NCBI GenBank assembly: GCA_029204225.1 | Contig: CM055113.1 | Coordinates: 32,799,363-32,863,362 of the forward strand | Direction: 5' to 3' | Source of the DNA: Diphasiastrum complanatum | Taxonomy: Eukaryota > Streptophyta > Lycopodiopsida > Lycopodiales > Lycopodiaceae | DNA: 64,000 bases | Shown here: positions 1-34,400 of the stretch, piece by piece | Numbering within the stretch: position 1 is the stretch's first letter | How the letters are laid out: each line of letters begins with the position of its first letter | Notes under the pieces: model-generated | Databases searched by the model: none | What the model saw: only the letters and a program-made list of their open reading frames with translations | Told to the model about the DNA's origin: nothing | Program-made: the position numbers and the translations under genes

Positions 1-3000
1 TTAATAATGGATGCCTAGATCTCTTCTAATAAGCATGTTTGATTGGATTTCCTTTGAAATTACAAATAAAGTAAACACAAGCTTCCAAATAGACTTCAAA
101 AAAAGATGCTGCTCATGTTAAAAAAAAGTTTACTTGATCTGTAGCAGATCCTGGTTCGTAATATCTTTGGAATTGAGACGTTTAAGGCAAAGACAATATA
201 ATTTTAGGTGAAAGTGTTCTTGACACAAGTTTCTTGAATTCTGTATATTTTAGTCTTTTAATAAGTTATTTTTGTATTCCGCTTTGATTACAAGATCTTT
301 TCATTGTACAAACTACTGTTTTGACTAAAAAATAAAGCCACTTGATTCAAGCATTTCTTCATTGCATTCAATGAATTTATGCATGACAAAGGTTCTTGAT
401 TTAAATTACCCGCATTTTTGAAAACCAAATTTAGACTGCATGTCGATAGTTGCTATTTTGAGATCTTATTTTAAACTTACCATATTCGCAACAAGCAATC
501 GTGCCCTGCTCTTGCAAATGGTACTCATAACAACCTAAACACATTTACTTGGAATGTTGTCTATTGCGAATATTTTCATGAAAATTGATGCTACCAGAAC
601 CTTAGTCGAGAATAATAGCCGGGGGCGGGGGGGGGGGGGGGGGGGGGTGGGGGCGGGTAGGTTCTTATACTAAAATGACTAGGTAGATGGGAAGGTTTAT
701 ATAGTAGAATGGCTCCCATGTGGCAGCTGCATGGCCATGGTTGCTAACTTGCTTCACTTCTTAACTGTGCCAACCTCCTTCAGTAAACTTTTTTCCTGTT
801 ACATTGTTTAGAACTTGGAAAACTGCCTCTTCAGTTCGAACTTACCTGTCAAACATAGGAGTAAAAGAATGCCCTTCCAGCAGTCTCGGCTGTGGTATAA
901 ACTTCTTTTTTTCGCTGGAAAGTGGCGTAGAATGTGTCCCCAACCAAAAGTAGTATCATCCCTTTGTTTTTGTAAACCTATAACTTAATTGCCCATCTAT
1001 CCGACTCCTACTATTCGGCCAGATTTTAGCATAAAATCAAATTTCAGGTTGAAGGTCTATTTATAAGGTCTGTTGCTATCTTCTGCAGTGCTCATTGGAC
1101 TTAATTCTGCATAACATCATTCTTTGAATATTGCCCACACTATCCTTTGCCTTGCATGACACTATCCCTCATATATGGTTGACCGAATGACGCAGAACAA
1201 TAATATTCCATTTCGTCTGTCGCTTAGAAACTCAAAAAACTAGACAAAATCAGGAATGACAGGTTGAGATTAAACCCATATATTGAAAAGCTTTTCCTAT
1301 CTGAGAGAGGTACAATTCATTCCTAAACTTGTTACAGGTACACATTTCTGTTCTTAGTGTAAGCAATATTCGAGAAATAGACACTCAGCCTTGTCCAAAA
1401 CTCGCAAAACAGCAAACTACATTTACTTGTGTGACTCTGTTCTGTAAACTCGGAACCTGGAAGTCAAATTCAGAGATAGCATTCATTAGCAATCGCGATT
1501 TCCAGAACATTGCCAATTCGCGATTACTAGTTTATGAGGTGATTTGAAATCGGTAGGGCATTGAACAGTTCAATGATCTACGCTCTTTCCGATTTACAAT
1601 TGTTTGATTCCAGAAGTTTGGGACACAGAATATTGCTTTAAGAGAAAGTCAGACGAGAAAATCAATGGGCATTTGTGTAAAATACTCCTTTGACTAATGT
1701 AAATTTGGAAAACTTGTGATTGAGACATTATTTCCTCTTGATGAATGGCTCAAGTTTTGTTCCATCCCCATGCTGAAGGAACAGTTTGATTTGTGGTCAT
1801 GTGCAGTTGAAGAATGCACTTACTTTTTCCTTTTCACATAACATGCAAAAATGTTTTCAGAATTCTTGTGAATGGGCATTTGTGTTAATAAGGATTTGGT
1901 CAATTGAATTATTAGGTTGATTGCTTCATGACTTTCAGATTCGTGGATTATTGAGCGTTTAAACTTTCCAATTGGTAATGTCTGAAGGTTGTCATTGTTA
2001 TTGAAATGCTATCTAGGATAAGCTCTTAGAATCAGCAGTGTAAGTACCGTCAAACAATGCTTGCTGAATGTCATATTATTTATTTTATGATTACTCTTCA
2101 TTTTCATAAAGTTTGGAGGAAGTACTTAATAGAGATTATATGACAAAAGATGATCTGGTGACTCTATTCAATTCTTCAAGAACATAATAATAGTCAATAG
2201 CTAATGCTATGCAAGGAAGAGCAACAAGTCTCTTACGGAGAACTTAGAGAAAGAAACCAAAAAGTAAGCTACCAAATAAATGTCTACTTCCTAATCATAC
2301 TCTACTAAGGTTAGGGCTGAATCCCTAATTTGAAAGGAATTGTCTAGAAAGAACAATAAATTTCTGCAAAAATGGTGTGCTCTTCTCTAGAGGCCCACCT
2401 TTTCGAGTTAATAGAAATGATTAAGTGGTTTTTCAATAAGATTATAGCTACCCTTCTGAATAGATCAGCCACTAAGTCGAATGGATGGTGGGCCCATAAA
2501 TCCAAATAATATTGTATGACCATATGCCTATGAATAATAACACCCATGGGCCTTGCCAAGTAAAATAGGAGCTGAGCCAACAAGCCTTAAAGCCCGAAAG
2601 TATTGTATGTCCACAAAATTTCCTAACCTAATAGTTAGGCATTGTATCATATTTTACTAGGCACTTGGTTGTGGCTCCTTGAAATTATGTTGACATGCTT
2701 TGAATTGACATTCTAAACACCACTTACCAATTGTAATGTTGTTAATGATCGTTACTCCTAACAACATTGTTTCAGAATCATCTTGATGCAAGCTCTTTAC
2801 TGATGTAAAGAAATCTATGAAAATAAGTACTGGGTCCAAAAATGTCCAATTAAGTGGGTTTATTTTTTTGAATGTATTTGTTGATTTTTTTTCCGACTGC
2901 AAATGTGCATAGAACACTGACACTATTTGTTTGTAAGGATTTGTCAGATGTACATTGTCAGAACTTATGGACAAAGGTTGGGACCATAAATCAAACGAAG

Positions 3001-3200
3001 ATATAGATTGCTGAATCAAACAAGATTCCATTTGCTTTCAATATCAACTCAAAGAGAAACGTTGAGCCTTAATTTTAACTATCAAAGATGGAAAAATGGT
3101 GGTACAACATGGATACCATTAGATCAAGACATGGAACAAGATGGACACGCTCATATTTTTCCTAAAGTGTGAGAAATTGTCAACTAGTTTGATTTTCCAG
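1..3200. other. AT-rich stretch with no recognisable gene
   Basis: I read both strands and found no reading frame with a family motif, no splice-consistent exon chain and no RNA gene. Short open frames near 1.33-1.55, 2.34-2.58 and 2.66-3.03 kb show no recognisable domain and look like chance. The only distinct structure is the poly-G tract listed separately. Decayed mobile-element sequence is possible but not visible. Confidence 0.5.
617..660. repeat. Poly-G tract
   Basis: An almost pure run of G broken by a few C and T bases, in an otherwise AT-rich region. Such a strand asymmetry can form G-quadruplex structure. It is also a place where read lengths and assembly are unreliable. Confidence 0.85.
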
Positions 3201-5400: not shown

Positions 5401-5530
5401 GTAGTGTGTGTTTTTATGTGTTTGTCCAAACATGATCTAATTGTGTGCCATATATAGTTGTTGCTTCTTGAAAGGCCAAGTGCATATTATACTAAGACAT
5501 AAGCAAGTGAAGTTTTTGGAAATTTTTATT
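5400..5530. other. Spacer between foldback array and Helentron remnant
   Basis: No gene or repeat recognised. The 3' end of the minus-strand Helentron remnant should lie here, but I could not place a terminal hairpin. Confidence 0.35.
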
Positions 5531-5535
5531 TATGT

Positions 5536-6750
5536 TCAGTGTATTAATAAGTCACCGATTACAATAAGTGGTGCGGTTTTGGGAATGTTGTTAAGTATTA
5601 TGTTTAGTTGTTCAATAAACATGGAAATATTAAAATTTGGTTGTCTGTATATTGCAATTATATGCAGGTTATCAATTTTATAAGTAAATAATTTTGGTGT
5701 GTCGTGTATTATATAACTGGACATGGTCAACATGTTGAGTTTCGTGATATAATATTGTTGATCCTGTAAAGGCTTAGTTGCCAATGGCTTTGAAGGTGGT
5801 TGGGAAATAAAGTTGATGATCATGAGCATGTGTTTCTTGTAAACATAATATGTGTGATGTCATTATATTATAATCATTTTTAATATTATGTTTGTATTTA
5901 GATAATGATCTAGTATTTAGTGATTGAATAATGAGATGTGTTTTTGCATAGGTATGCATATTCAGGATATGGAAACTCCAGTTTCCTGTTGTTTTGAGAC
6001 GTGTCATTTCTTGCTAGACAGAGGCATCGAGTTTAATATGGTTTGAGGTCAATGGCGATGTGATCTATAAATTTGCAGGTTCTTATATTCGTGTTAGGGC
6101 TGTATACATTAAACCATGTTTTGAAACATGTTTTGGATTGAATGCTAATTCAATTATTGTTAGACCTTGCGCTCGATGTATTGTTCTTGCTATTGCGATT
6201 CTGATTGGGAATTGTTTTCTTGTAACTTTATTAAAATATAGAGTGGCCAATTTGGAATTCTTTCATGATTTGATGTAGTGGATTCCATGTTCGGCTTATG
6301 TTGTTGGTTTGATATACGTGGACATGATTTTGTCGGGTATTTTTTCCAATTTTGTAATTATTAAATTGTATCCATTGATTTTGTATGTCAATTTTGAGGC
6401 TACATCGATTTGTATTTTTGGGTTGTAATTCATATGACTTGGGAAGTCAATTTCAAGATTGTAATTATTGGTCATGTCACATGTGTGGAAGTTTTCATTT
6501 GACGAATCAGTGCTTGATGTTTTGTTTTCAAGATTTTCCCAATTGAAATGTGCATATTTAATATATGTTTTTCATTGAAATTTAACTTTTGTTTATTGTG
6601 TTGTATTGTGTCGTAGTTTGCATAGCAAGCATCTTTGTATGAGGAATGTGATTCTGCAAGTGTTTGCTCGGATGTTTGAAATGGTCTATATAGAAGCAGA
6701 TGCTCTCGGTAAAAGTTGTCAGAATCTTTATGTTCATTGTAATTCACATA
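5536..6750 (-). pseudogene. Helitron/Helentron remnant: Pif1-type helicase ends plus APE-type endonuclease
   Basis: Read on the minus strand, 6747-6472 encodes a segment with DSDNFYREHLLLYRPF and a following KLNFN, the pattern of the Helitron helicase region (NYYREQLMLFLPW-like). Next, near 6250-6070, comes FPIRIAIARTIHRAQGLTI and then HGLMYTALTRI, which are Pif1/SF1 helicase motifs V and VI. After a TAA stop, 6007-5536 continues with QSLNTRSLSKY, SHILCLQETHAH, IIAIYRQPN and PLIVIGD, the signature of an endonuclease/exonuclease/phosphatase domain. Helicase followed by endonuclease is the Helentron layout. Most of the helicase core and any Rep domain are missing, and the frame is broken at least twice, so this is an internally deleted dead copy. 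It lies about 95 bp from the end of the H3-like reading frame on the same strand. Confidence 0.8.
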
Positions 6751-6841: not shown

Positions 6842-7672
6842 TCAGTACGTTGAGAGAGATATTTTTCGATTTTGGTTAGGTATCGTATGTCTGTTGAACC
6901 AGGATAAAAAAATTTTGAATCTTTTTTTTTTTTTTAAGATTTTAATACTAAAATCAAGTTCATCTAGTCTAAAACAAAAAGGAGTACCCTTTGTATCTAT
7001 AACATTCGATATGTCTTGTTCAAATTTAAAATAATCATCCGAATCTATATATGTATAAAAATTGGGAGGAGGAGGAGGAGGTGGATGTGTAGTATCTACA
7101 ACAATCATAGGAGTATCCAAAACAGAGGTAGCTATATTTACAGCATTATCAACAACAACATTATCTACAATGGATTCTGGGATAGGCTTCACAGAATCTG
7201 AAGGGTTAGGCTTCACTTTCTTAGGAGCACGCTTGGGGGCTGTCTGTTTCATAGAATGCTTCGTAGGAAGACTAGTCCTATCTACAGGAGTTGGTCTAGG
7301 AGCAACAGGCTGAGATACATGTAACATACAGTACCTATCCCTCATTCTCATCAAAAGCTGAAAAATCTTGGGCATTATGGTAACCCTCTTGCTATGGATG
7401 GCAAGCAAAAAAGAATCCTAAAAAAAAAGACTACTATAATCTTCAGCAGCCTCCTGAAGGCACTGAAGAGCACTCGGTGTGAATCTAACATGCTGTCCGA
7501 GATCATTTCTTGTTATGTTCTGGACAGCACGGTAGAATGGAGCTCTTGGGATCAACAAAGCTGTTGACCTCTGATACTTGTATCTCAGAGAGCCATCTGC
7601 TGCGGTTGATGTTAGAAAACTGACTTGATCATACAAGTAACCCAAGACAAGATTCCTATTGTTGTTAGACAA
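6842..7672 (-). pseudogene. Histone H3/CENH3-like protein with long C-terminal tail, locus A
   Basis: The minus-strand frame reads [20 protein letters not shown], then [22 protein letters not shown], an in-frame TAG (7418-7420), then LLAIHSKRVTIMPKIFQ. This follows the histone H3 fold in order: the REIRRYQKSTELLI region, the ALQEAAE helix and the CAIHAKRVTIMPKDIQL helix. LLIP and QEAAEDY are closer to plant CENH3 than to canonical H3. Where H3 would end, the frame runs on for about 150 residues: a Lys/Pro-rich stretch (KRAPKKVKPNP), seven prolines, then a DSDDYFKFEQDI...GTPFCFRLDELDF block. No N-terminal tail is visible; an acceptor AG just before GSLRY suggests a missing upstream exon. The stop makes it a probable pseudogene. 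A similar tail occurs in locus B, which argues against a chance read-through. Confidence 0.8.
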
Positions 7673-7679
7673 TAGTCAT

Positions 7680-8170
7680 ACACATGAGAGAGAACAACAA
7701 TGTTGAAGTGATGTACTCCAACTATGTCCCATTACAAATGAAGTAGGGTGCCAACCTACATATATACTTTCTCTAAACTATGTGTAAGGTAAAAAGCAAA
7801 AAGCAAACTGGGACAAAAGTTGAAGGTGGTCCAGGCGGAGGCGCACAACAGAGCACATCCTCCAGAAAGATCAAGAAGACGTCGTATACCGAAAGAGATT
7901 AAACTTCCTTCACCATTGGCTCGTGTACAACATTCACAACCAATAAACTCTCGTACAGACCAAAGTTAAAAGTCTATCAATGGGAGATACACAATGGTGT
8001 GATGGCAACCGCAGGAGATGAGGATGAGCCAGGAGAGAAGAAGTCTCTCCTTGTATACTTTCTTCTCATGGGCGTGAACTATGTGATAGCGGACTTGTGC
8101 ATGAAGGTTAGGATGAGAAGGGAGGGATGATAAAGAACTCACAAAGGACCGCTATGTACGGACACAATGT
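7680..8170. other. Region between H3-like gene A and motif array, no gene recognised
   Basis: If the H3-like gene has an upstream exon it should lie here on the minus strand. I found no convincing MARTK-like start. An ATG at about 8070 opens a 31-codon serine-rich frame that cannot be tied to a histone tail. Confidence 0.4.
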
Positions 8171-8175
8171 ATGGT

Positions 8176-8888
8176 ATATTGGACCTATGTGAGCCGAATA
8201 TGAGAGAGCAAGATTAGATTTGAGAAAAGACGCACAAGTGCGATATGGGTGACACATAGGCAGATGTATCGGACCTGTGCGCATGGAAGGTAGTAGGAGA
8301 AATTTTGATTGTGAAGGGCGCGCACAAATGTGATATGCGGAGCGAAAAAAAAAGTGAAAAAAAATTCATCAAAATTTGTGATTTTATATCGGGGTTTGCA
8401 CGTGCGAAAGAACGTCTTGTCACACGTGTGGGAGTTGTACGGACAAATGCAAAAATGACACATGTCACCCTGTCACACTACACATGTGGGATTTGTACGA
8501 TCGAATGTGAGAGCGACACGTGTTTATGAGCAATCGAATGAACACACGACACGTGTCCAGGTGTCATTTTACACGTGTGCAGGTGCCATCTTGCAAGTGC
8601 ATACGCCTGTTGTCCAATTGAAAGTAGACACGTGTCCTAAGTTCGTTGACCACACGTGCAAAAATTTAGTATAAATGGCACAAAAGCCAAATAATTTTTT
8701 ACCTTTTTCATTCTCAAAATTCATGACATATCGTCTTTGTGCGCGCTCAATGCTGTCCGTTTGCTTGCAACTATACCTACTCGCGCACAAGTGCGATATT
8801 TTGTGTTTGTCTACCATACATATCCATCTTCTACGTCATTTTGATAGTTAGTTTTCGTTCAGTTCTCTCGCGCGCACAAGTGTGATAT
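8176..8888. repeat. Array of inverted 17-bp motif pairs, locus A
   Basis: The 17-bp motif [G/A]CGC-N7-[C/T]GATAT, here typically GCGCACAAGTGCGATAT, occurs in plus orientation at 8230-8246, 8320-8336, 8783-8799 and 8872-8888. Each is preceded by a minus-orientation copy at 8176, 8266, 8728 and 8820. Start-to-start distances are 54, 54, 55 and 52 bp. Between 8386 and 8660 lie further CACGTG-containing variants. The last plus copy ends 12 bp before the ATG of the plus-strand gene. The array lies between two divergently oriented genes, as in locus B. A role as protein-binding sites is inference. Confidence 0.75.
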
Positions 8889-8900
8889 TCACGTTACTGC

Positions 8901-10118
8901 CATGGCCTCTTCCTCATCATCCTCATGAGAATCAGGCTTGAGTTCATTTCTGAGTGAATTTGGGATTACTGAAAACCTAGACTACTTCCACAGTCTATTC
9001 AGGCCATATCTACATGTTTTCAGGACTGCACAACCAAATTCTGACGTATTTTATGAACATTATGTCAGATTCAGAGATATACTTAGCAAGCCTGTTTTCT
9101 CCATAGGTCCACTCCAGTACATGCATTATATAGATCTTGTTTATTTCTTCCCAGCTTTTAGACATAGACTGGATAGAATGTTTACCAAATTGTTTGATCT
9201 TTTCAAAAGTAGTTCTATGTGTCTATATTGCAACAAGAAATGTCGATTGGTTGAATATCAGAGTGGAATCGACACTCCTGATAAAGAAAGTGACTTCATT
9301 GATGTAAATACGGATGTTCTCCGGGGTTCGTTCATTGGCCAAAATACATCTGATGATGAATCCAAATCTATGGAGGATTCGAAATGTCTTTTCAATTTGT
9401 CTGTATATTATATTAATGACGATGTATATTTTACTACTGCTGATTTATGTAAATTTTTTGACTATCATGAGGACGAGGTTCTATGTTTATTATCCGACAC
9501 AATTTCTGAATCCTTCGACTTTGTAGGTTTTGAGACAGATGACCTTGTTCCTGGTATTGATTTTGATGATGAGGAGGGTCTTATGACCGATGAAGAATGC
9601 CTGAATAAGACTTTATCAAATATAGCTGAGGATGGGAGAGGCAGACCATCCGATGAAGAATTCACGGCATTTCAATCCCAGATGGGCTTCCCTCGTCCAT
9701 CATTAATGCACTTCACTAATGATTCCACTTCAGTACGTGGTCATTATATTGATCATCGAACCAATGGGGTTGGCTTAGTTGGTTAGCTTGACATCCAAAG
9801 TTTCTTTGGTCTTAGGTTCGAGCCTCCCCTTGGAAACCAAGAAGCATTATATTGATCATCCTGATCTAGTTGCTGCTAATGATGAAGAATGTGTAAGTGT
9901 TTAATCTTCCTTGCATTTGAATGTTTTCAATCACTAAATGTGTTTTTGCTAACATATTTCCTATTGTAAGATGCTTTCATAATAGATGATTTTGCTGCGA
10001 GATGAGGTGGCTTTAGACAACACGCATCCTCGTTCTAGAGGGACAATGGACTGGGTCACTATCTTAATATATCATGATCCTCTTTCAGCACTTGTCCAAA
10101 GAATTAATCAGACTTAGT
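8901..10118 (+). pseudogene. MASSS family acidic protein, locus A, interrupted by a SINE
   Basis: The ATG at 8901 opens MASSSSSS, then a TGA stop (8928-8930), then a long frame to 9786. Its first ~95 residues (LDYFHSLFRPY, DLVYFFPAFRH, CLYCNKKCRL) align by eye with the locus B protein. The C-terminal half is strongly acidic (SDDESKSMED, DFDDEEGLMTDEE). At 9757 a SINE interrupts the frame. Ignoring it, the frame continues after the duplicated site with HPDLVAANDEEC and a GT donor at about 9892. A possible further exon (RDEVALDNTHPRSRG...) ends at the TAG 10116-10118. No catalytic motif or membrane segment is seen and function is unknown. An acidic protein paired with an H3-like histone could be a histone-binding partner, but that is speculation. 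Confidence 0.6.
9757..9844 (+). mobile_element. tRNA-derived SINE with 15-bp target duplication
   Basis: An 88-bp insert carries an A box (TGGCTTAGTTGGTTAG) and a B box (GGTTCGAGCC) in tRNA-like spacing. It is bounded by identical 15-bp copies of CATTATATTGATCAT at 9742-9756 and 9845-9859. These are hallmarks of an RNA polymerase III retroposon inserted by LINE machinery. It breaks the acidic-protein frame, which resumes in phase when insert and one repeat are removed. There is no long A or T tail. The anticodon arm does not fold as a proper 7-base loop, so a working tRNA gene is unlikely. Confidence 0.75.
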
Positions 10119-10164
10119 TTATAATGAATTAATACTATTCAATGAATGTAATGTAATTATGAGG

Positions 10165-11270
10165 CTAGTTACCTGAAACGCTGCCAACCACCATATATCA
10201 TTTTCTGACTGGACACTAAATTTGAAATCTTCTTGGTTTTTTGTTTGTGATAGAGCACCATTCATGAGAGTTACACTAACCCTTTCTATCTTCTGCCCTT
10301 TCACAATTTCTGACTCATCTAACTTAAGTACTATGATTATTTTGCCATTCACCTTTTTGTAGGTTATATCATAGAATGTGACGATGTATCTCAGCAAGTA
10401 ATTTAGATCAACAAATAAATTGTTTGATGAATTATAGAATATCGATCTTCCATCAGTTTCATACACCTCCTCAATATGAAATGGAGTTCCAGTGATCTTA
10501 TGCACACCTATGTTTAATGTATTTCTCTCTTTCTTCAAGTGATATGTCCTAGGGATTGGGACTTTTCTAATTTGAACTTGCTTAAAAAGCTTCTCTAATT
10601 AGTTTAAATATTGTTGCATATGCTTCCTACTAATACCTGCAAAATCACAAGCACCCTAAACTATAGTCTTATCTAAAATATTTTGAATGTCCACCATCAA
10701 AGACTCTGCTATTTTACACTTTACATTTGAAATCCTATTGTTCATCATGATACGCTCAGTGAATTTGCAAGTCAATATTGTGCCCAATGACATTTCTAGT
10801 GAAACATTGTCTTTAATATTCCGAGGAGCTAATAATGCAGATCTGCAAAAAAAACAGATAGTTAACAAAATATCACCATAGCTGAAATTAAATCCCAATG
10901 TCATTGAAAAACTTACAAAATTCAGAATATGCTTACTTGAATGCACAGATCCTTCTATTTCGATAACCTCCTTTTAAAAGCGTTTGAATATTCTTGCAAC
11001 TTTGTCGCTTTTGTTTCTTACTTTTAGCCTTCTTCTTTACCAAATCCACATCCTTCAGTAATTGTAAGTTTTCAATACAAATAGATTGTAAGACTGATTA
11101 CATTTGCTCTAGTTCTGATTTGATATTGATTGTTATCTTCTGTAATGATTCATTTTTTTTTTTAAGTTGTTCATTTTCTTCTAACGTCTTTTGGAGATGA
11201 CAATCTCTATTCTGACAATAAGAGGATATTCGAATTAACTCATCTTCTAAAAAGTGAACTTTAATCATAT
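10165..11270 (-). pseudogene. Transposon-like gene: coiled coil plus unassigned C-terminal domain
   Basis: On the minus strand, 11265-10940 encodes a heptad-like coiled coil (LEENEQLKKKNESL, SELEQM then a stop, KKAKSKKQKRQ) ending ICAFK at a GT donor. After an intron to about 10846 the frame resumes with SALLAPRNIKDNVSLEMSLG and, past two stops, GACDFAGISRKHMQQ. It then runs through KKERNTLNIG, LFVDLNYLLRYIVTFYD, VLKLDESEIVKGQKIERV, SVTLMNGALS and VQSENDIWWLAAFQ to a GT donor near 10170. The ERVS-x-TLM...VQSEN-x-WWL block has the look of a conserved domain found in mobile-element genes, but I cannot name the family. At least three stops make it a pseudogene. It is convergent with the acidic-protein gene of locus A. 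Confidence 0.5.
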
Positions 11271-11289
11271 GAAGTTGTTTTCCATGGTT

Positions 11290-12990
11290 TTGAATTTAGT
11301 CAATTTATACTGCGAACTGTTAACAATTCTTAACTGTGACTATAGACACTGTGGTTATATCATTGGAGTTGGGGAGGCCTTGGGAGTGGTGTGGGCAAGC
11401 AAATAAGCAATATTGTTTTATTTATTTTGATATTTTTGTATATCCTACATGGCATTCCTTAAAGGGTCTTTTTGATATTGAGAACTTTTCTAATGGTCCC
11501 TATTTATACAACAGTAGCAACACATTAGCATTCACACGTGTGGATACAAGTACAACAAGAAATTTAGCATTCTACACAATCAAATCGAAGACATCAAGAA
11601 GAGAAGACAATAACACATATTGAAGATATCAAGAGGAACCTGAGCTTGAAGAAGACAATAAAATTGAAGATGAATGTTCTCCAAAGATAGAGAAATTTTT
11701 TAATACATTCTCCACACAAGTATAGCTATCTATAGCAGTAAATGTGTCATTTGGCCACTTGTCAAAAATTGTCCTAAATTAGTAGTTTCTAGGTACTTCA
11801 CAAGAAACTTAGATTTTCATTACTAGATGCAAACATTTGGTTGATAACAGTTACCACAAAACCACTTTTCAACCGAGTTTCCAGATCTTGAATGAACTAC
11901 AATATAACATCAACCAAATCAAGATCATTGTTTTCCATTGGGAAAATGAATACTGAAAACAACCATTCGATTAATTCCACCAGAATCACCGTTCAACTGA
12001 ATCAAATCTATAGCCTAATCAACCAAGTGCCTCTATACCACTAATCGAATCCTCGATCAGTGCTACCACAAAAATTCCCAAAGATTATCTACATTATCTC
12101 TATCGAGATGACAATCAACCGAAGCAAGACCTAACACTTCTGCATCAACCGAGTCTTTGGTTGTCATTAACCGAAACTAATCTATCAACCAAGTGTTCAC
12201 TCTTGCTTCAACCAAATCTCACCAACTTCAACTGAGTATGACCCATTCCAACCGAAACCTCCAAAACATCATCATGTATTGAGTATTTTTGGAAGGGGAG
12301 AAGTGATATCATTCGATTCTGTTGAACTACAATCAGCTTGTTCATCAGCCGAGACTGTGAGCCGAACCATTAGTCGAATTTGTTGGCTCATCACTAGCTG
12401 ATTTCATTAGCTCACTCATCAGCCAATTTTGTTGACTCTCCAATAGCCATGGATCCTTTGGCACAATAATCAGCCGAACATTTCGACACAATCATCAACC
12501 GAATACTGTGACTAAATCATTATTCGAGCCAAGTTTACTACTGCATTAACGAGTTCTTTCTGCAAACCAATGGTTACCACTTCAGCCGAGTTCTTGAATA
12601 GTTCATTTATTAAAATATTCTACTGAAACCACATTTTAAACTCTAAGTGTTGTAAATCTAGCCTGAGTTCAAATCCAAAGTCTTCTTATTCAAAACAAAA
12701 CAAAAAAAAAGAACCACAAAACAAACCATAACAGATGGAACACCACTATGATCCAAATACGACAGAAGAATATCCACTTGAAGTAGTATCATGTACATCT
12801 GGACAAATTTGAAATCATAGGTTCTCCCGAATGAAGTCCCAAATACAAGGACCTCTTCCACAAATCCATTTGAGAAATGGAAACCTAATGGAGCTGAGTC
12901 ATCACATGTCCAAGCTTGTTTTAATGGTGCAGAATCATCACATGCAAGAGCACACCTAACAGGGCTTTTGCTAACCAAGGAACTCGCATT
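11290..12990. other. Non-coding stretch with many CCGA(A/G) repeats
   Basis: No gene recognised. From about 11870 to 12600 short words such as AACCGAA, CAACCAA, CAGCCGA and ATCGAATC recur every 20-40 bp in loose form. This could be the decayed LTR or leader of the gypsy gag fragment that follows on the plus strand, but no LTR ends were found. Confidence 0.35.
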
Positions 12991-12994
12991 GAGA

Positions 12995-13428
12995 AAAGAA
13001 CCCGAAAATTAGATCTACCAAAATATGATGGTACCCTCAAAGATTCTTACAGATCTCTGAGAATGCATGTGAAATTTATGGTGAGACATCCAATGACGCT
13101 ATGGTCCAACTCTTTTCAATGACCATGATTGACAAAGCATGTGAATGGTTTTTTAACCTGGATCGTGAAAATAAAATTGATTGGTCTCTATTGAAAGAGT
13201 TGTTCATCAAACGATTCAAGCCATTTCATTTGATGGAAAGTCCTTTTGTCAAATGGAGTAACATCAAAATGGAAAAAGATGAAAAGGTACGAGACTATAT
13301 AAAACATTTCAAGCGTTTAAAAAGTCAAGTACAAGAACATCACACTGAAAAGATGCTCATAATCTTGTTCTTAGTAGGGCTCCCAAGGCGGATTAGACGT
13401 GAGCTTAAATCAAATGATGAGTATAAAC
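12995..13428 (+). pseudogene. Gypsy (Ty3) gag fragment
   Basis: Starts with RKLDLPKYDGTL and, after a frameshift, continues ACEIYGETSNDAMVQLFSM, CEWFFNLDRENKIDWSLLKE, F-x-KRFKP and LVGLPRRIRRELKSNDEY. This is the retrotransposon gag core. It is a paralogue of the minus-strand gag at 35.1-35.7 kb, which shares LDLPKY, YGEIYP and LPKRIRRELKRHNEY. It is cut at 13428 by a Helentron endonuclease fragment, so zinc knuckle, protease and polymerase are missing. Confidence 0.8.
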
Positions 13429-14010
13429 ACATCTCATTATTCAATCACTAAACACTAGATCATTATGTAAATACAAATACAATATTCTAAATGATCATAA
13501 TCTAATGGCATCTCACATACTGTGTTTACAAGAAACACAAACTCATCATCATGCACAATTTTTTGCAACAAGCTTTAAAGCCATTGACAATTATGCCTTT
13601 ACAGGATCAACAATATTGTATCGTAAAACTGAATCCCTTGAACACGTTCAACTATGTAATTCATTGCATAGTGAAATCATTCATGCGACATTCTATTATA
13701 AAACCTACAGTATACATATAATTGCAATATACAGACAACCAAACTCCAAAATTTCCACATCTTCTGAACAATTAAATACAATACTTACCAACGTTCCTAA
13801 AAACCACACCAATTAACATCAATATTAATGCATTAAGCCCAAATAACAATTACCAAAAACTTGACTCGGTTATGTCTAGACATAATTGGCTTTTAGACAA
13901 GTGACAACTATATTTGGCACACAATTGGATCATGTCTGGACAAATATACAAAATTCACAAAATCTGTCACGATCTAAATAAACGTACAAATAAGATCACA
14001 TTTCCACAAT
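13429..14010 (+). pseudogene. Second Helentron endonuclease fragment
   Basis: Begins mid-domain with HLIIQSLNTRSLCKY, followed by MASHILCLQETQTHHH, ILYRKTESLEHVQL, IIAIYRQPNSKIS and, after a frame break near 13800, DSVMSRHNWLLDK and FGTQLDHVWTN. The C-terminal DH-x-WTN matches the catalytic Asp-His end of APE-type endonucleases. The segment is closely similar to the endonuclease at 5.5-6.0 kb on the other strand, so they are two copies of one family. It directly abuts gypsy gag on its left and lies about 180 bp from the stop codon of the decarboxylase gene on its right. Confidence 0.75.
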
Positions 14011-24649: not shown

Positions 24650-25700
24650 AACTCATACCAGGTCTATATGAAGATGATAAAAGTCAAAAGATTCAAACTT
24701 TGGGTGCTTTTTTGGACTTGATAGCTCTAGTAGGCAATAGATCATAGTGATCAATTTATTAATATATGTTCCCATCTTCCATAAATTTCAAAAATTTATA
24801 GATGAGTTAACAATGTATGCAAACCATTATATTGTGCGGGATTCGAAGAGTAAAGGTCGTTCTCCAAAATTACTTTTAGAGTCAGGAGTTTTTTTTTATG
24901 ATCACACCTATTTTCTTAATAAAAATGGTTTAGTTGGTAGATTAGAGCCATATCCTCTACCAGATTTTTCGAGTGAGGAATGGATTTATCCTTATGCAAC
25001 AATTTCAGAAAGTTTTTGATCTAGGCTATATATTGATATTCAGAGTATATTAAAATGTAGCACTGGATCAAAGAATAGATTAATTTGGTATCTACCTTTT
25101 ACTATTTTTGTTGATTTTTTTTTTTCAAATGCAATGTTTGGAGAACGAAAACAATAATTATTTGTAAGGACTTGAGTGTTGATATAATCGCCAAGTTGTT
25201 GGTTGATGGTTGGGATACAAAACAAAATCAGCAAGTTCAGTGCAGAGTTATGTTACTCATCCATGACATTTAGATATCACATCGAAAAACAAATGCTCAC
25301 TTTGCTGCTGTATTATAGAAGATGGATTAAATGCAAAAATGTTTGGAAGCCACTTGATCAAGATTTTGGTATAAACCCTCAACAACAACCTCAAATAACA
25401 GTGAAAAGAAATGACAACATTTTTGCAATGGTTGAGGTCAAGGAAGATTGGTGTCTCAATCACATACGATCAGAACCAAACATGTTGCAATTCGATCTAC
25501 CTCAGTACTATCAATTTCGATTGAATGGTGTAAAGGTACTTTATGTCATATAAAAATATTTCTTTTTTTCTATTTATAAGTAAATCAGTTTCATAAAATA
25601 TATTAACTAAAACAATTTCTCTTGTGCAGGTAAGAGTAAGGCAGGAAGAGCATATAAAAAACAAAGACATTGGAACATCCATCGAAATTGAAGATCCATA
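24650..25700 (+). pseudogene. Unassigned exon-like reading frames upstream of the Ulp1 remnant
   Basis: A frame at 24747-25019 reads KFIDELTMYANHYIVRDS, SPKLLLESGVFFYDHTYF and PYPLPDFSSEEWIYPYA. A second at 25203-25553 reads YYRRWIKCKNVWKPLDQDFG and MVEVKEDWCLNHIRSEP, ending at LNGVK before a GT donor. It may splice to VRVRQEEHIKNKDIG after the CAG at about 25630. The amino acid composition looks like real protein and the putative splice is phase 0. No domain is recognised. It may belong to the same decayed transposon as the Ulp1 remnant, on the opposite strand. Confidence 0.4.
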
Positions 25701-26365: not shown

Positions 26366-27600
26366 TCAACTATCTATGATCTCTAAATCCATTTCTCTAG
26401 TTGGAAGTAACTTGGGTGGAGAACACTCGGCCACTGTAGCTGGATATGAATTTTCAATCACAAGTTTAATGGTCTCCTGTCTGAAGTGCATTATCTCCAT
26501 TGGGGAGACCTTCGAGCAACATTTAAACTGAAAAAAAACATAAACACAGTTAAATGTAATTGATCAAAATATTTGAATTAGAAAAAAAAACAAAAACACA
26601 ATTAAAAGTTATTAATCGAAGATTACCTCTTCCAAATTTGGAAGTCCATCTTGTAGTGCAAGCCAATTAGAAAAGTGTTTGGCATTGCATACAGTATACC
26701 AACCACAGCTGACAGAATCAACCTGCTGGGAGGACTGCAAAATCCAAATTTTAACATTATGAAATATCGGATCAACACGTAGGACGTTATAACTAAATTT
26801 ACAATGGAAACAAGGGCGCGTTGAACCAATATCAAAAAAATATTTTTTGAATATGGGATCAACGTGCACGTTATGAAAAGAAATCAAACAATAACTACAA
26901 GGACATGTCGATATTGATAAATTTTTACCTCTACATCAACAATTTTTAGCTTCGTATATGCTTTTGCATTTGGTATCGGAAAGAGTTCCAGTATTTTCTG
27001 TATATGGCTCCTAGTAATTCTGTGTGTGTGTGTAATAGAGTTCATCTTTAAACAAATCGAATGACACACATCCTCATCATTGACGTATAAGAACAACACA
27101 TATAAGCTCCAATGATCACTACAATCAGAAAACAATAAGTTAATGAGAATCAATGAGAAATCAAAATTTATATGAAAAATTTAACATAATAAAATCTAAA
27201 AAAAAGACACTTACTTTGTTATGTATGGCAGTACGAGAATTGGAGTCCCCAGTCTGACGTATTGGAGCATATCATTGTGCAGACTTTGAAATCAGGGAAA
27301 TCAAATGTAGCCATGAATTGAAGGGGGAACAATACTACATCTATAAACAATGGGGTCTGGAAAAACTCCATCCAATACTGAATCGCCCCACATCTTACAT
27401 TGTCACCTAGCATTTTATCCCTACTTTCTAATTCACCTGTATCTAAACTAGCAAGGGGGAGATCAACATTGGTCTTCGGCATCCTAAAACTGTATCGAGG
27501 ACCTAAACCTTTAAGATACATGTTTAACAATTGGTCATATTGTACATATTGAGGATTATTTACAAAGGCAAGTGTAGGGGGTGACGAAAGTAAATACAGA
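26366..27600 (-). pseudogene. Ulp1 (C48) cysteine protease remnant with four exons
   Basis: Exon a (about 27600-27214) carries GELESRDKMLGDNVRCGAIQ and, after a frameshift, TPILVLPYITN. Exon b (27118-26929) carries DHWSLYVLFL. Exon c (26734-26627) carries SSQQVDSVSCGWYTVCNAKH. Exon d (26527-26366) carries PMEIMHFRQETIKL and ends in TGA. All introns are GT-AG; the split Asn codon joining exons a and b and the phase-0 joins elsewhere agree. HWSL supplies the catalytic His and SCGW the catalytic Cys. The usual Asp position seems to be Asn (KMNSITHTH). Such SUMO-protease-like domains are common in plant MULE and CACTA transposons. Exon a overlaps the end of the H3-like tail frame in another phase, so the two could have been one transcript or a fusion. 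Inactive because of the frameshift. Confidence 0.7.
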
Positions 27601-28423
27601 TAAACCAGAAAAAGAATTGCCTTTCAAAATTGATTCTACCTTTACATTAACAAAATCATCTAAATCATTTCCTAGAACAAGTGGAGGGAAACTAATATTT
27701 ATGGGGGTAGGAGGAGGAGATTTATTAGGAGAGGAAGATTTAGGAGGAGAAGTTAAAGTTGGAGTTCTGGGAAGAGAAGAAAGAAACTTAGGAGGATAAT
27801 TGGGAGGAGAATGCCTAGAAGAAAGAAACTCATCCAAAGGAGATGGCTTGGAAAAATCCCTTGCTTTATTTGGAGGGTCAAGAGTCCTCCTCTTCTTTGA
27901 AACACTCTCGTTCTATATACGAATAACAAGCTGGGATGGTTGAGATTGCTTTCAATTTGTCCTTCCTAAATCTTGTTTTGGAGGAGAGGAGGGAGCATGC
28001 CTAAAGTATTATGCAAATTTGTCATATGTGTCCCAAAGCCTGAACACAATGTTGAAATCCTTGGGCATGATGGTCACCCTCTTGGCATGGACAACTGCAA
28101 CAACAGTATCAAAAAAAAATTTCACTTGGAGATTCTCATATGTTGTGTAGCGCCTCAATTGTTGTTACTGTCCATCTCACATCTGTAGATAGACTTCTTT
28201 TAACCTGCTTGGTGGATCTCTGTATGTCAGCTTTCGGAATCAGAAGATTATTTGTCTTCTGTAGGTTCTGAATATCCTTGAGCCAAGGTGGGCCTCTTCT
28301 TCTGCCCCTTGGCCTAGGAGGTGGTGGTGGTGGACGAGGTGGTGGTTGTGGACTTCTCTGTCCCACTCCTGAGATTGGTATTCCACCAGGGTGGCCTCGT
28401 GCAGTTTGCTTGGTCTACGCCAT
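27556..28423 (-). pseudogene. Histone H3/CENH3-like protein with proline-rich C-terminal tail, locus B
   Basis: The ATG at 28423 reads MA-stop-TKQTARGHPGG, identical to the histone H3 N-terminus except for the TAG at Arg2 and changes after residue 9. A proline-rich linker (PPPRPPPPPPRPRGRRRG) follows. Then comes the histone fold: LKDIQNLQKTNNLLIPKAD, DVRW...IEALHN and, after one frameshift near 28145, VVHAKRVTIMPKDFNIVFRL. A TAA at 28009-28011 follows where H3 would end. The same phase stays largely open beyond it, with two more stops, to 27556: SVSKKRRTLDPP, PPNYPPKFLSSLP, PPPTPINISFPP and a final LDDFVNVKVESI..GNSF block. The NLLIP segment is CENH3-like. Length to the TAA is about 138 codons, close to H3. 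The conserved fold with a shared long tail marks a separate H3-like lineage. Confidence 0.82.
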
Positions 28424-28432
28424 TATTGACCA

Positions 28433-30212
28433 ATATCAGATCAGCGCGTGAAGAAGGGAACCCAAGATGAAAAGTAGGGTAGAGCACGTCAAACCGATAC
28501 TTGAGCTCTACAATACCGATAGCTGGTAGCAGATGGGCGCGCGAGAGTAATTGAGGTTCGTAAGAAGTTTGTCTTGAGCACGCTGTATCGCTATTGCATG
28601 GATATAGAGAACTATAAGAACTTTAAGCAAAAAAAATTCAGCGTCGTTTATCAGTATATAGAGAAGATTTGAAATGATTGAAAACATCATGGGTTGGATG
28701 TTCGAGGTTTGAATTACAATGATGATTTCTCTGAGGGTTGTCAATCAAATCAAACTAAATATCCATCTATCATCAAAATGATTAGTCGATATTGAATAAA
28801 ATAGAATTAATTTCGTCTAAAGTATGCTCACATCTACATTTAAAGCTACAAAAGTATGGCCACATCTAAAATTTATTGCTGAAATTGACAATGTTAAGCT
28901 ATAAATATCTGACCTTTTTTATATCCAATCATTATAATTTCATAAAATTCCAGCCGCCATTATTTCACTCAATAGCAAATCGACGCGCATATACTGCATG
29001 TGAAATTCCCGCGCGTTGATTCGATATTGGAAAATAATATAAATGATCAAAGCTTGATTCGATATATTCTCCTTAGCTTTGGACAGAATGAAAAGTCTAC
29101 CAAATCAAGCTTTGATCATGCAAAATACACTCCAATAATTTCGAAAATTGTCGAAAAGCTTTGTTTCCTACCATAGCAATTCGACGCGTGCAGTCCAAGT
29201 GAAAAATCATTGTCTTCTCTAAAGGTGCGTTGATCCGATATCCAGTATTTCACCCGATAGTTAATCGACGCACATATACAACATTTGAAAACCAGAGGTG
29301 CTATTCTCGCACGCTAAACTGATACTGGATGGAATATGAATGATTAAAGCTTGACTCGATAAATTCTGTGTAATCTTGGACAGTATGAAGAGTTTAGCGA
29401 ATCAAGCTTTGAACATGCATAATGGGGTCCAATAGTTTTCAAAATTTCAAAAAAAAAATTGCTCTTGCAATAGCAATTCGACGCCCACGCAGTCCAAATG
29501 GAGAATAAGCATCTTCCGCTAGGCGCGCTGATTCGATATCTCATACGCAGAAGAATTATATTGGAGCGCTTTATGAATGACTAATGAAAATGTTTTGAAT
29601 GAACATTATTTCAAAAGAATCTAGCCTTTACTCTACTTAAATAGAGTGAGAGATTGTAATAATTCTCCTTGTACACTTTTTTCAATAATATTCATTTATC
29701 ATTTGTTTATTATTTGTTTAATTATTATTCGAAGAGGCTACTGATTGAATATTTAATGTATTCCGGTGCAGAGACTGATTCTAGGGTCAGACCTAATGAT
29801 GATTTGTTGAATTTAGTTATAGACTAGTTAATGTATTCCGACGTAGGTACAAATTTGTCTCACTCTGATTGGTGAATAAAGATAGGCTATGTTTCTCAAT
29901 TCATTACTTGACAAATGTATGGCTGTGATCAACAAGAATTGGCTATAAATATGGGCACCACTTGCCAATTTTCGATTCTGTGATCTTTTATTCCAAACTC
30001 ACAAGTCTTTTTGTTTTCTTTCTATCTCACAATATCGAATCGATGCGTGAGTTCCCAAACATTGCATGGTCGGATTCATTCAGGCGCGTTGAATCGATAT
30101 CACCCACTTCTGACGTGTTCTCACGGAAAATTTCAATCTCATCCTAGCAATATCGGATCAACGCGCGCACTCTATCCTCTACCGATAAAATTTTGTCGCA
30201 TTGGACCGATAT
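28433..30212. repeat. Array of inverted 17-bp motif pairs, locus B
   Basis: Plus-orientation copies such as GCGCGTTGAATCGATAT start at 28484, 28579, 29011, 29225, 29309, 29523, 30084 and 30196. Each is paired with an upstream inverted copy starting at 28433, 28526, 28972, 29173, 29257, 29470, 30032 and 30150. Start-to-start distances are 51, 53, 39, 52, 52, 53, 52 and 46 bp. The outermost copies lie 9-10 bp from the ATGs of the two divergent genes (28423 minus, 30223 plus). The frame is the same as in locus A, [G/A]CGC-N7-[C/T]GATAT, but the central seven bases differ (GTTGATT here, ACAAGTG there). Confidence 0.8.
28957..29541. repeat. Two tandem units of about 290 bp inside array B
   Basis: 28957-29245 and 29246-29541 share the order: TATTTCAC, inverted motif, plus motif, AAAGCTTGA(T/C)TCGATA, a TTGGACAG(A/T)ATGAA segment, AATCAAGCTTTG, inverted motif, GCAGTCCAA(G/A)TG, plus motif. 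Corresponding motifs are 284-298 bp apart. Each unit has two motif pairs and a central imperfect palindrome around AAGCTTGATTC. Confidence 0.75.
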
Positions 30213-30222
30213 CAGGTTCAAT

Positions 30223-30626
30223 ATGGCTAGTTCCTCCATGTCCTCAGATAACAAACTTCTTGATTTTTTTAATGCCAGTGACATTCCATTTGAGAAATTA
30301 GAGTATTTTGCTAGTATTTTTTTTACTCCCTTCGATATCGATAAGCTAGTTTATGAGAATCGTTATAATTTAATTTCTTATCTTGATAATTTTTCTCAGA
30401 TTGTTATTACTCCTGTTTTGGATATAGATAGTTTTTGTTTCGTTCATTTTCAGGACCTTGTGCATTTCCAACCATCTTCTAACCATAAACACAATAGAAA
30501 GTACTCTAACTTGCATGACCATTTTAAAAGAAATATATATTGTGATATCCACAAAATAATATGTCGCCTTATAATGAAAGGAATGGCTTTTGTCTTTTAC
30601 ATATCTGCTGAAATTCTAGATGATGA
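30223..30626 (+). pseudogene. MASSS family protein, locus B, truncated by an LTR fragment
   Basis: The ATG at 30223 reads MASSSMSSDNKLLDFFNASD and continues KLEYFASIFFTPF, YNLISYLDNFSQIVITPVLD, VHFQDLVHFQPSS and IHKIICRL, matching the order and spacing of the locus A protein. The frame is intact to 30626, where homology to the LTR family begins; the following residues come from the LTR. The acidic C-terminal half seen in A is therefore absent. The Cys-x2-Cys of copy A is not kept. Function unknown. Same strand, promoter geometry and partner gene as in locus A. Confidence 0.65.
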
Positions 30627-30794
30627 GCTAGAACCGATCAAAGATTTTTAGCCATAGGAACTTGGCGCCAGCTGGATTCTGGTCATAGTGGCGCCGGGAG
30701 CAGTGCCGGGAATAGCAGTGGCGCTACTGGTGCCGGGGGCAATGTTGGCGCCAGTGGCACCATAAGTAAAGCTTGTAAAGGTAGCTTTACAACA
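30627..30794. mobile_element. 3' fragment of the TGTAGCGCAGG...ACAACA LTR family
   Basis: 168 bp from GCTAGAACCGATCAAAG to TTTACAACA match 17969-18132 of the solo LTR, including its GGCGCC-rich part. The expected target repeat or primer site does not follow; instead the sequence continues into a coiled-coil reading frame on the minus strand. The left edge cuts the MASSS gene of locus B. Confidence 0.8.
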
Positions 30795-31470
30795 GACCGG
30801 TACGGGGATTTGTGGTCCGGCTTCCAACACTTGAGCGACTGCTTTTTCATAGGCGGTGATGGTCTCTTTAGCCTGTGCCAAGGCGGTTGAAGCTACTCCT
30901 TTGAACCTGTCAAAGCGACCTTGAAATTCCTGAAGGGCCACTTTGTATGTCTCCACTTTCTTGAACAAATATGCAATCTTCGTTGGTGTGACTGGATGAT
31001 CTGGTATTTGTGTTTGAAGATACGCATCACATTCAAGGGTGGTCGCATCCAATTCACCTTGAAGCCGCGTGTGATCTTGTTCGGCCATCTGTAATTGACC
31101 CTTCAGCAGCTGCACCTATTGCTTTGCATCCTGCATGGCCTTATCCACCTAATCCTATGTGGTTGTTAGGGCGTTTTGTAGGGAGCTGATGTAGTCTTCC
31201 AATCGATCAGCTTGTTGTTGGGCCAACTTCTTTTCGGCTTCAACCTTGTCTTCATGTTGTTTGGCAATCTTTAACTCTCGATCCAACTGGACAAGTTTCT
31301 GGCTGATCAGAGTGTTTTCGGACCCCATCTCGGAGATTCTCTGCTCCATTTCCTTCTTCTTATCCAGCATAGAATGGATCACTTGCGCATGCTTGAAACC
31401 AAACCTAGAGCATCACTTGAATCGACGGTCGTGGAGGCGGCAACAGCAGCAAGACCTAATGGTACTGTCC
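30795..31470 (-). pseudogene. Coiled-coil reading frames of an unassigned retroelement
   Basis: Minus-strand frames 31382-31155 and 31115-30648 encode long heptad-type helices (KKKEMEQRISEMGSENTLIS, EKKLAQQQADRLEDYISSL, LKGQLQMAEQDHTRLQGEL, EFQGRFDRFKGVASTALAQA), separated by stops near 31150. The second frame runs through the LTR boundary into a Gly/Ala/Thr-rich tail encoded by the LTR. Such coiled coils occur in gag-like proteins of some plant retroelements. A captured host gene is an alternative. At 31480 it joins the reverse transcriptase of a gypsy element, so it interrupts that element. Confidence 0.5.
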
Positions 31471-31489: not shown

Positions 31490-34400
31490 TGCCAGTACTT
31501 CTTCTTCTTCAAAAATGTCAGTTTGTATATAGGTCGTGCTAAATCCGCAAAGAAGATAATAAAGATTCGATAGTAGTTCACGTGACCCATAAATACGTAA
31601 ACTCCACGAATTGTTGCTGGCGGTGGCAATTCCACAATAACTTTGATCTTAGAATAATTTGTGGCAATACCATGTCTTGATATCACATGTCCAAGCACAA
31701 CTCCGTGGGAAACGCATATTTGACATTTTTCTGAATTAAGAGAAATCTGATATTTGCAACATCTTTCAAATACTTTTTCCAATCAATCCAGGTGGTCTGT
31801 ATCTATACTATGAACTCCCAAGTTGTCCTAGTAAATTTCAAGGAATTTCTGCAGATAATCTTTAAAAGCAAATTGCATTACTCTTTGGAATGAACTTGGT
31901 GCATTACAGAGTCCAAACGGCATTGCTTTGTAAGCATAGGTGTCCCATTCTGTTGCAAAAGCGGTTTTGTGATGATCGGCAGGTGCGTCTTAACTTGGTT
32001 GTAACCACTAAATCCATCCAGAAAACTATAAGCTTCTGCTCCAGCAAGGCGATCCAAAATGCCTCAGTAAAAGGTAACGTAAAGTGATCCTTCCGCGTCA
32101 CTTTGTTCAACGCTTTGAGGTTCACACAGATTCTCAATTTCCCATTTTTCTTAGGAACAATGACAATCGGTGAAATCCATTCAGTATGCTCGATCTCATA
32201 AATGAAATCGGCGTCAAGTAGTTTTTGAAGCTCTTTCTTTATCAGATCCGCAACATTAGGATTACAATGATAGAACTTTGTAACTTTTGGAATTGCATCA
32301 AATACTAAAGGCATGGTATGTTCAATCACTGATGTCGGAATTCCCTTCAGATCTTGATAAGTCCATGCAAAGCAATCTTGATACCTAATAAGTAACGAGC
32401 GGAGTGCTTGATACTGTTCAGGAGTAAGTTGTGATCCAACTTGTACAATCTTTTCTGGTTCTCCTGGCTCAGCAAGATTCATTGGCTGCGTCTTAGTAAA
32501 CTTCTTTAGATTACGGCATGTGTTCTTCAGGTTCACGATGTGCTTTAGGTAACATGATAACCACATTATCCAGTGTATAACGTTTAAAATGCTCGGGCAT
32601 ATCATTTTGGACTACATTTGCATGTTCTTTTTCGAAAGGACTTGTCTTGGATCTTCGTTTAGCCTTCTTAGAAGGAATTGATCGTGGAGGTGATGACTTT
32701 CAAGATGATAAATCTTTCTTCAAAGGTAAAGACTTCCTAGATGATAATGTCTTACTAGAAATCTGACTTGAAGAATCATCCTCGACTTTTCCTTTGCCTT
32801 TATCCAATAAAGGTGACATTTCCTTTGAATCAATCTTTCGAGGGGGATTTTCCCATTTCAGGACCGTATTATATTGTTGCTTAGCTTGTTTCTTCGTCAT
32901 CGATCCTGTGATCCTGTCTTCCTTCAATATAATTGCTTTGAGTAGTTTGATTGTTGGTTCATCAAGAACATTACGCACTCCAAATATGGTTGGATCCATA
33001 TGATTTAGAATCTGCTCATCCGTAAGTTCTGCATTGTCATTATAAGTCAAGGCATGAATCACAGGAATGAGTTCATCCTCAATCGGATCTGGTATAGGTT
33101 CCGTTGTGAAAACATGATTGGTGTATCCAAAGTTTGATCTAATAAGGAAATCTCGCTTAAATCTGATTGATTATCTTGTTGACACATATATCTTGTTGTA
33201 CAATCAATCATTGCAAGAGCTTGATTGCAATTGACCGTATTTGTTTGAGAATCGTAATGAATTCCCAAATTTTTCTGTGGTTGGTCACAAGTGTGATATG
33301 TTGTTGACAAATTGTCATCCTCTTTTTGAACCACTGGTTTGATAGTCCAAGTTGTAGGATCAATTTTAACAGCACGTTCATGATTTTCAAAAGTGATTTT
33401 TCCGGTACCCCAGTTATGAATTATTTGCGCAACTCGTAACCATGGACGTCCCAATAGAACTCGGTAAACATTAGGCGCTTTTGGTAAGTCCATCACTACG
33501 AAAGTAATGATGAACTGTACTCTTGCAATCTTGACAGATATATCTTCCACCATTCCTTGTGGACAAACTGTTGTTTGATAGCTAGTTTAATAGCAAAAGT
33601 AGCAGGTTTGATTTTTGTAAGGCCCCATTTTGCACATAGCTTTGTAGAGATCAGGTTAACTCCTAAATCGCCATCTATCATGGCTGCTTCTTTAGGAAAT
33701 TGTCTATGTTGTATCGACAGAGTGATATTCTTTTGTTCACTTTCCCAAGCAGCTCCAACATGGAGTACTTTGTTAGATTCTTCAAATCCAGCACAAAAAA
33801 ATGGCTCTTGATGGACTTCCGGTTCTTCTTGAGCTAACTTTTGCGCTAAGACTTCTTTTGCTTTTGGCACTAACTTCAGGAACTCTCCCAATGAAATATT
33901 GATCTTACTAGACAAAATGTTCATGAGTAGTTCTGTTTGCGGTGCTTCTGGTTCAGTCATCTTGAAGGGTTCTTCAAGATGATGTAACTGATCATTCATA
34001 TCCGTATGTAAATTTCTTGAAGGCTGCAATGGTGAAGACCGAACTTCAGTTGTTGATTTAGCAGCTTCAGGCTCCTCTTCTTCTTGCAGATGTTTAATCC
34101 ACTATCTCATATTTTGATATCTTCATTTTTCTGTATTAAGATTTGGATAGACTCCCGATGTTGTTGGTGTATCGTTCAATGGTATAGAATCAGTAGGTAC
34201 TGGATCCACTACTGGTTCTTTTTGCTTTTGTGCTCTGGTGACCACCATCAAGGGTGCACTTGGTTTATTTTGAGCTACTGGTCTTTGCTTGATTGTTATC
34301 AAGTTTACAGGTGTTGTAGCTGGTGGTGGCTTCAATCTTGCTGGACAGTCTTTATAGCAATGCCCATAAAAACAGTCATGACAGAATGGTACAAATTTCT

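Follow-up and report, generated by a model that had tools for sequence, protein, structure and literature searches.

In Pseudocercospora and related fungi, hAT DNA transposons have captured a housekeeping histone H3 gene; they insert with an 8-bp target duplication and include copies inactivated by repeat-induced point mutation (PMC6710886). Viruses encode histones as well, and single viral histones are believed to be incorporated into the nucleosomes of the host, the best-studied case being the bracovirus H4 with its extended tail (PMC9145170). The CMCT clan of DNA transposons comprises EnSpm/CACTA, Mirage, Chapaev, Transib, Plavaka, ESTA and Lanisha, with target duplications of 2-5 bp, and transposon-borne TET and SET genes have been described (PMC12730594). 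The VANDAL transposons of Arabidopsis encode VANC anti-silencing proteins, whose targets differ between families (PMC5735166). Here we analyse a window of 64,000 nucleotides of the Diphasiastrum complanatum genome (G000:C22:32799363-32863362; the window is the whole stretch of DNA under study), in which two loci, A and B, each contain an H3-like gene, an array of a short motif and a gene whose protein begins with MASSS, hereafter MASSS. Both loci are very probably defunct members of an abundant DNA transposon family whose transposase has the RAG1/Transib fold.

How does this element compare with the known systems? As in the fungal case, a DNA transposon has amplified an H3-like sequence to hundreds of copies (PMC6710886), but here the transposase has a RAG1 fold, no target duplication is seen at two empty sites, and the H3 is diverged, altered in its tail, under purifying selection and spread over several families. 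With the CMCT clan and RAG1 the element shares C(2)C and H(4)H between the second D and the last E (read by eye), the RAG1/Transib fold and CA..TG termini; unlike the clan, it has no Pfam match above cut-off, no duplication at the two empty sites and a cargo of H3-like, MASSS, b and a genes. VANDAL elements are likewise plant DNA transposons with dense, family-specific arrays of short motifs in non-coding DNA, and the difference between the A and B motifs resembles that between VANC targets of different families (PMC5735166); in our element, by contrast, the motifs lie in both orientations between divergent genes, the binder is only a candidate, and a histone is encoded. Viral histones are also parasite-encoded, the parasite there being a virus instead of a transposon. 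Among the papers listed by a literature search, with subscription papers and most preprints outside its reach, none was seen to describe a transposon that conserves a histone gene, the fungal hAT elements excepted, and the word 'histone' is absent from the main text of a review, dated 2026, on how plant transposons capture genes. The element described here, which carries a histone and is moved by a RAG1-fold transposase, is well supported and apparently undescribed.

Results

Structure of loci A and B

The following features make up the two loci (positions are those of the window).

Locus A
2754-3154, plus strand, remnant of gene b (tblastn, 44% identity, E 1.5e-21)
6845-7675, minus strand, H3-like gene (match at 6947-7579, 80.6% to the family-2 H3, E 7e-95; Pfam Histone PF00125, 42.9 bits)
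8086-8888, no strand, motif array (7 matches to the A motif)
8902-9783, plus strand, MASSS gene (87.5% to the family-2 MASSS, E 8.9e-59)
10065-11286, minus strand, broken transposase pieces (KLDES block, 85% to the family-2 transposase, E 2e-123; N-terminal exon piece, 35% to family 3)
11461-11495, minus strand, terminal inverted repeat of the transposase side (CATTAG..., 2 mismatches against the family-2 end)

Locus B
24825-25529, plus strand, remnant of gene b (tblastn, 39% to family-2 gene b, E 4.7e-42; to family-1 gene b, E 1.7e-17)
26764-26867, no strand, three extra copies of the B motif (motif scan)
27559-28423, minus strand, broken H3-like gene (tblastn to families 1-3, E 1.9e-7 to 2.4e-11; fold at about 28285-27955)
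28972-30166, no strand, motif array between the divergent H3-like and MASSS genes (7 matches with at most 3 mismatches; an eighth at 28433 with 4)
30223-30651, plus strand, first part of the MASSS gene (142 open codons; 32% to the family-2 MASSS, E 1.1e-13)

An earlier sequence-only reading had proposed that the two loci share layout and orientation (H3-like gene on minus, motif array, MASSS on plus) while being strongly diverged. Homology matches and arrays well above those of shuffled sequence bear out the first part; as to the second, the MASSS proteins of A and B are homologous at 30% identity (E 1.3e-11) and the array motifs differ. Gene b, H3 and MASSS are retained at both loci, and locus A has pieces of the transposase as well. 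At A, the H3-like gene has an in-frame stop within the fold (7418-7420) and has lost its N-terminal tail, and the MASSS gene carries TGA at codon 9, directly after MASSSSSS. At B, the H3-like gene starts at 28423 and reads MA*TKQTARGHPGG, with a stop at codon 3 and an open reading frame for a C-terminal extension; the second part of MASSS was not found there.

The reading had not located the ends of an element. We find them on relatives of the loci and on one side of A; a search with the family terminal repeats did not recover the second end of A, and both ends of B were looked for and not found. An inverted repeat of 544 columns around locus A, with arms of about 540 bp and 75% identity (5412-5943 and 13425-13953) that flank part of the locus, is not the terminal repeat of the element. 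Directly after the MASSS gene of locus B lies a repeat-protein reading frame (30651-31115, minus strand), retroelement-like by eye and similar to one in L041; the background of the region is Ty3/Copia-like, also by eye.

Families, ends and gene order

The genome searched comprises 1.74 Gb in 5176 contigs. A search with the PF00125 histone profile gave 6325 first-look candidates, of which 150 were scored, and one with the locus A MASSS protein gave 8699, of which 149 were scored; the resulting at least 153 histone and at least 297 MASSS matches are lower bounds. Both kinds of match are spread over many contigs, and copy number, which the sequence-only reading had wished to see checked, is high. 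Of the 150 histone matches listed, 13 are canonical H3, 134 are diverged domains that score about 95-110 bits, and 3 are short and C-terminal. Neighbourhoods of 10 kb were examined for 20 of the 137 non-canonical H3 matches, mostly the best-scoring and long open ones, and all 20 contain the H3-like fold. Fifteen loci form family 1, with aligned blocks 81-97% identical, the majority above 90%; three (L030, L033, L038) form family 2, to which locus A is closely similar; families 3 and 4 are the single copies L040 and L025.

An inverted repeat of 37 bp, CATTAGGGCCCTTTTTGGACTCAAAAAGGGCCTCTTC, bounds family 1, and the inverted repeat CATTAGAGGAGTTCTCAATATCAAAAAGACCCTTT bounds family 2; both have termini CATTAG...CTAATG, that is, the 5'-CA..TG-3' of the CMCT clan. 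Five copies show both ends (8756, 7946, 6404, 9305 and 1175 bp), and at least one end is visible in 9 of the 15 family-1 loci within the stretch examined. The 1175-bp copy (L030, 8786-9960) is an internally deleted derivative of family 1. It has both terminal repeats and lies within a copy of Copia; non-autonomous derivatives, too, seem to have transposed.

Families 1 and 2 have the same gene order, transposase - MASSS - H3-like - b - a, with MASSS and H3 convergent in family 1 and divergent in family 2. BLASTP between the two families gives 43% for H3 (E 5e-23), 43% for the transposase (E 1e-36), 29% for b (E 2e-34), 28% for a (E 3e-13) and 29% for the C-terminal part of MASSS (E 0.002); all five genes are judged from these sequences to be related, MASSS least securely. 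In the partial view of families 3 and 4, H3 and MASSS pieces are present, divergent in L040 and convergent in L025. Between L038 and L033 or L030 the synonymous difference ranges from 0.08 to 0.35 among the genes of one copy pair, a several-fold spread, and this variation suggests that copies have recombined with each other. A BAH domain read by eye in gene a is not supported by Pfam, and we do not trust a TnsA-like Pfam match in family 2, whose 18 bits (E 0.0043) fall short of the cut-off of 26.5.

Linkage was assessed by comparing the 137 non-canonical H3 matches with 145 matches to the second exon of MASSS, excluding the window's own and first-exon matches. Sixteen H3 matches have a MASSS match no more than 10 kb away, at a distance of 1.66-1.81 kb in 14 pairs and of 6.6-6.8 kb in two, and the orientation is divergent in all 16. 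In eight shifted controls the number of pairs was 0, 0, 1, 0, 0, 0, 0 and 1. The other 121 H3 matches have no listed partner, a small overlap that is expected because both sets are samples of much larger ones. The term 'selfish gene pair', also offered by the sequence-only reading, is too narrow, since the pair lies within a five-gene transposon with a RAG1-fold transposase. The proposal of an undescribed mobile element with its own H3-like histone is supported, with ends on relatives, matches on many contigs and linkage elsewhere.

Transposase and insertion

A RAG1/Transib fold, that of the CMCT clan, is seen for a relative of the transposase, RAG1 being the enzyme that acts on human antibody genes. 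Between the second D and the last E, C(2)C and H(3-4)H are recognised by eye, in P0014 as KLDE..HLAGDLKTLKCM..CxxC..HILKVH..QGMERSH and in a family-1 copy as HIFYAH and QGMEKSH. The transposase has no Pfam match above cut-off; membership in hAT is supported neither by a hAT match above cut-off nor by an 8-bp duplication at two empty sites. Its profile gave a single chance match among PDB sequences (E 2.3), and none of 22 candidate stretches in viral contigs was confirmed. A partial relative, P0020 of the fern Adiantum nelumboides, is 48% identical over 28% of the query; together with the Ty3/Copia-like background it marks the genome as plant-like.

Insertion seems to leave no duplication, a claim that covers two true empty sites, both found among the loci examined. 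The joined flanks of the 8756-bp copy align without a gap at the junction to Ty3-like sequence in L025 (67% over 303 columns), and those of the 1175-bp copy match a Copia copy in L038 across the junction (about 30 bases, one mismatch). Neither site has a target duplication, the 2-5 bp of the CMCT clan included, and the check for duplications proposed by the earlier reading thus came out negative. Among the five two-ended copies the flanks match in one only, over 2 bp, and there is no consistent duplication. In the 9305-bp copy, a Copia frame of 153 codons is open through the junction.

The motif arrays

The A motif, CGCACAAGTGCGATAT, has 8 matches in the window with at most 3 mismatches, 7 at 8086-8888 and one at 33284, against a mean of 0.21 and a maximum of 1 in dinucleotide shuffles. 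The B motif, GCGCGTTGATTCGATAT, has 10, 7 at 28972-30166 and 3 at 26764-26867, against a mean of 0.04 and a maximum of 1. Both arrays are far above chance. The three outlying B copies stand between gene b and the H3-like gene; they could be a second array or part of a different copy. The MASSS start codon lies 13 bp past the last motif at A (8902) and about 10 bp past a degenerate motif, read by eye and ending near 30212, at B (30223), close to the 10 bp given by the earlier reading.

Arrays of this family-specific kind in non-coding element DNA, a feature of VANC type, are present at the window loci, L038 and L033. With at most 4 mismatches over 10 kb, all 10 matches in L038 fall in the interval from the start codon of MASSS to that of H3, as do 6 of 6 in L033 and, for locus A, 7 of 11 in the window. 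The motifs of L038 and locus A stand largely as opposed pairs about 55 bp apart, repeating at about 90 bp, and the outermost copies in L038 are 13-16 bp ahead of the start codons. The array is therefore most likely the regulatory region of the two divergent genes and not a transposase end site. In L025 and L040 matches are scattered.

The histone

The element histone keeps the H3 fold, including the loop-2 block KRVTI, and in three PDB searches the best 60 of 178, 175 and 176 matches were all of H3 type. N-termini are readable in 20 copies: 14 of family 1, three of family 2, L025, L040 and locus B (excluded were L037, whose start lies beyond the stretch, the additional histone copy of L025 and that of L040, and tail-less locus A). 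K4 is present in 19 of the 20, R8 in all and K9 in none. A canonical H3 combines the fold with K4, K9 and K27 and has eight tail lysines, so these proteins are not canonical. In family 2 the only lysines in residues 1-42 are K4 and, in one copy, K2; in locus B the lysine after K4 is K48; and the one open family-1 copy has no lysine between positions 4 and 94.

The histone is under purifying selection in families 1 and 2. For the family-2 fold, the ratio of nonsynonymous to synonymous divergence (dN/dS) in three pairs is 0.084/0.478, 0.116/0.378 and 0.146/0.404, or 0.18-0.36; in family 1, the nonsynonymous difference (pN) is 0.027 and the synonymous (pS) 0.072, a ratio of 0.37 over 105 pairs. 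Comparisons between lineages, with canonical H3 among them, give pS 0.69-0.96 and pN 0.32-0.42. Whole-gene values for L038 against L033 and L030 are 0.32 and 0.22 for H3, 0.46 and 0.38 for b and 0.47-0.53 for the transposase; MASSS, for L038 against L033 only, gives 0.36 and 0.27. In all of these the pairs share history, and time spent as dead copies inflates the values.

Long H3-like relatives in the protein collection number one among 19 candidates for family 2 and none among 67 for family 1. The single one, P0021 of the nematode Diploscapter pachys, is a fusion protein with an H3 domain whose fold has LLIPRAPFY in common with family 2, a resemblance that may reflect convergence or contamination. 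H3 trees give splits of 82/79 and 74/87, too weak to separate single from multiple capture.

Discussion

Why would a transposon keep a histone? The element-encoded H3 may join nucleosomes on or near element copies. Such chromatin could accept active K4 marks but not K9 or K27 silencing marks, given that the tail keeps K4 and has no K9; in family 2 and at locus B nearly all other tail lysines are missing too. MASSS, the best candidate for recognising the motif array beside the two promoters, would act there as VANC acts at its own arrays, and the two proteins might act jointly as an anti-silencing device at the level of chromatin. A transposon with an anti-silencing histone and a MASSS partner is the best explanation overall, and we give it an even chance. 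Silencing resistance as the role of the histone, suggested by its tail sequence, comes close to an even bet; that MASSS binds the array, argued by analogy, is rather unlikely.

Several observations weigh against this explanation. The array is not universal: neither motif has a match in L030, where the array segment is missing, nor in the two family-1 copies scanned (L028 and L036), and a family-1 array sought in one copy was not found. In genes a, b and MASSS, Pfam recognises no domain above cut-off, and the predicted structure of MASSS is uninformative (predicted local distance difference test score 34.6). The family-3 copy has E at position 4. Decay reaches the histone too, since most family-1 H3 genes are broken and only one of the 14 with a start in reach (L022) is open, to 412 amino acids. 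By hand count, stops interrupt the fold in about 57 of the histone matches listed; in about 50 of these TAG is the sole kind of stop, a pattern that would be consistent with decay of methylated CAG. Plants silence through H3K9 and H3K27, and the link from tail loss to resistance builds on this background. Plant CENH3 tails also start with MARTK and lose the K9 context, so the tail alone leaves room for an origin from centromeric H3.

Such an origin, with the histone steering element chromatin or insertions to centromeres, is improbable. The fold motif LLIPRAPF resembles plant CENH3, and the element folds are 45-53% identical to canonical H3 and 41-51% to two provisional plant CENH3 sequences, which is close. 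Yet nothing named CENP-A occurs among the best 60 of the 178, 175 and 176 PDB matches, loop 1 has canonical length in families 1, 3 and 4 and one extra residue in family 2, against two in plant CENH3, and the matches lie on many contigs. A role in transposition, in which the transposase complex uses nucleosomes marked by the element's K4-bearing tail for docking or targeting, is somewhat less remote, though still unlikely. RAG2 reads H3K4me3, and the element combines a RAG1-fold transposase with K4 in nearly all readable tails and with duplication-free insertion; against this, Pfam recognises no RAG2- or PHD-like gene in the element, and the family-3 copy has lost K4.

Passive capture, by which a host H3 hitch-hiked and was kept by copying alone, has its precedent in Pseudocercospora (PMC6710886) and would suit the many dead copies. 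It is nevertheless very improbable, because purifying selection acts on the H3, both inside families 1 and 2 and across lineages, and these two families have the same gene order. That A and B are segments of an ordinary duplication is suggested by the same layout within about 20 kb and is refuted by the divergent H3/MASSS linkage elsewhere; the 30% identity of the MASSS proteins, the different motifs and the genome-wide recurrence of the cassette also contradict it. The sequence-only reading had named two outcomes that would speak against a mobile element, namely only two loci in the genome or genes unlinked elsewhere. Neither was seen: matches lie on many contigs, and 16 of 16 linked pairs are divergent, with 0 or 1 in the controls.

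Returning to the anti-silencing histone, known transposon strategies use enzymes or binders that act on silencing, such as TET, SET and VANC. If our explanation is true, a transposon that keeps a selected core histone replaces the substrate of silencing instead of editing its marks, a RAG1-fold transposase with unusual, duplication-free insertion is at work in a plant-like genome, and the element offers a natural test for the H3 tail residues relevant to silencing. It is conceivable, and for now a tentative proposition, that a lineage of plant DNA transposons makes silencing-proof nucleosomes. Their H3 would retain K4 without K9 and most of the other tail lysines and share its promoter with a partner that directs it to the motif arrays of the element, while the element itself moves by a duplication-free, RAG1-type transposase.

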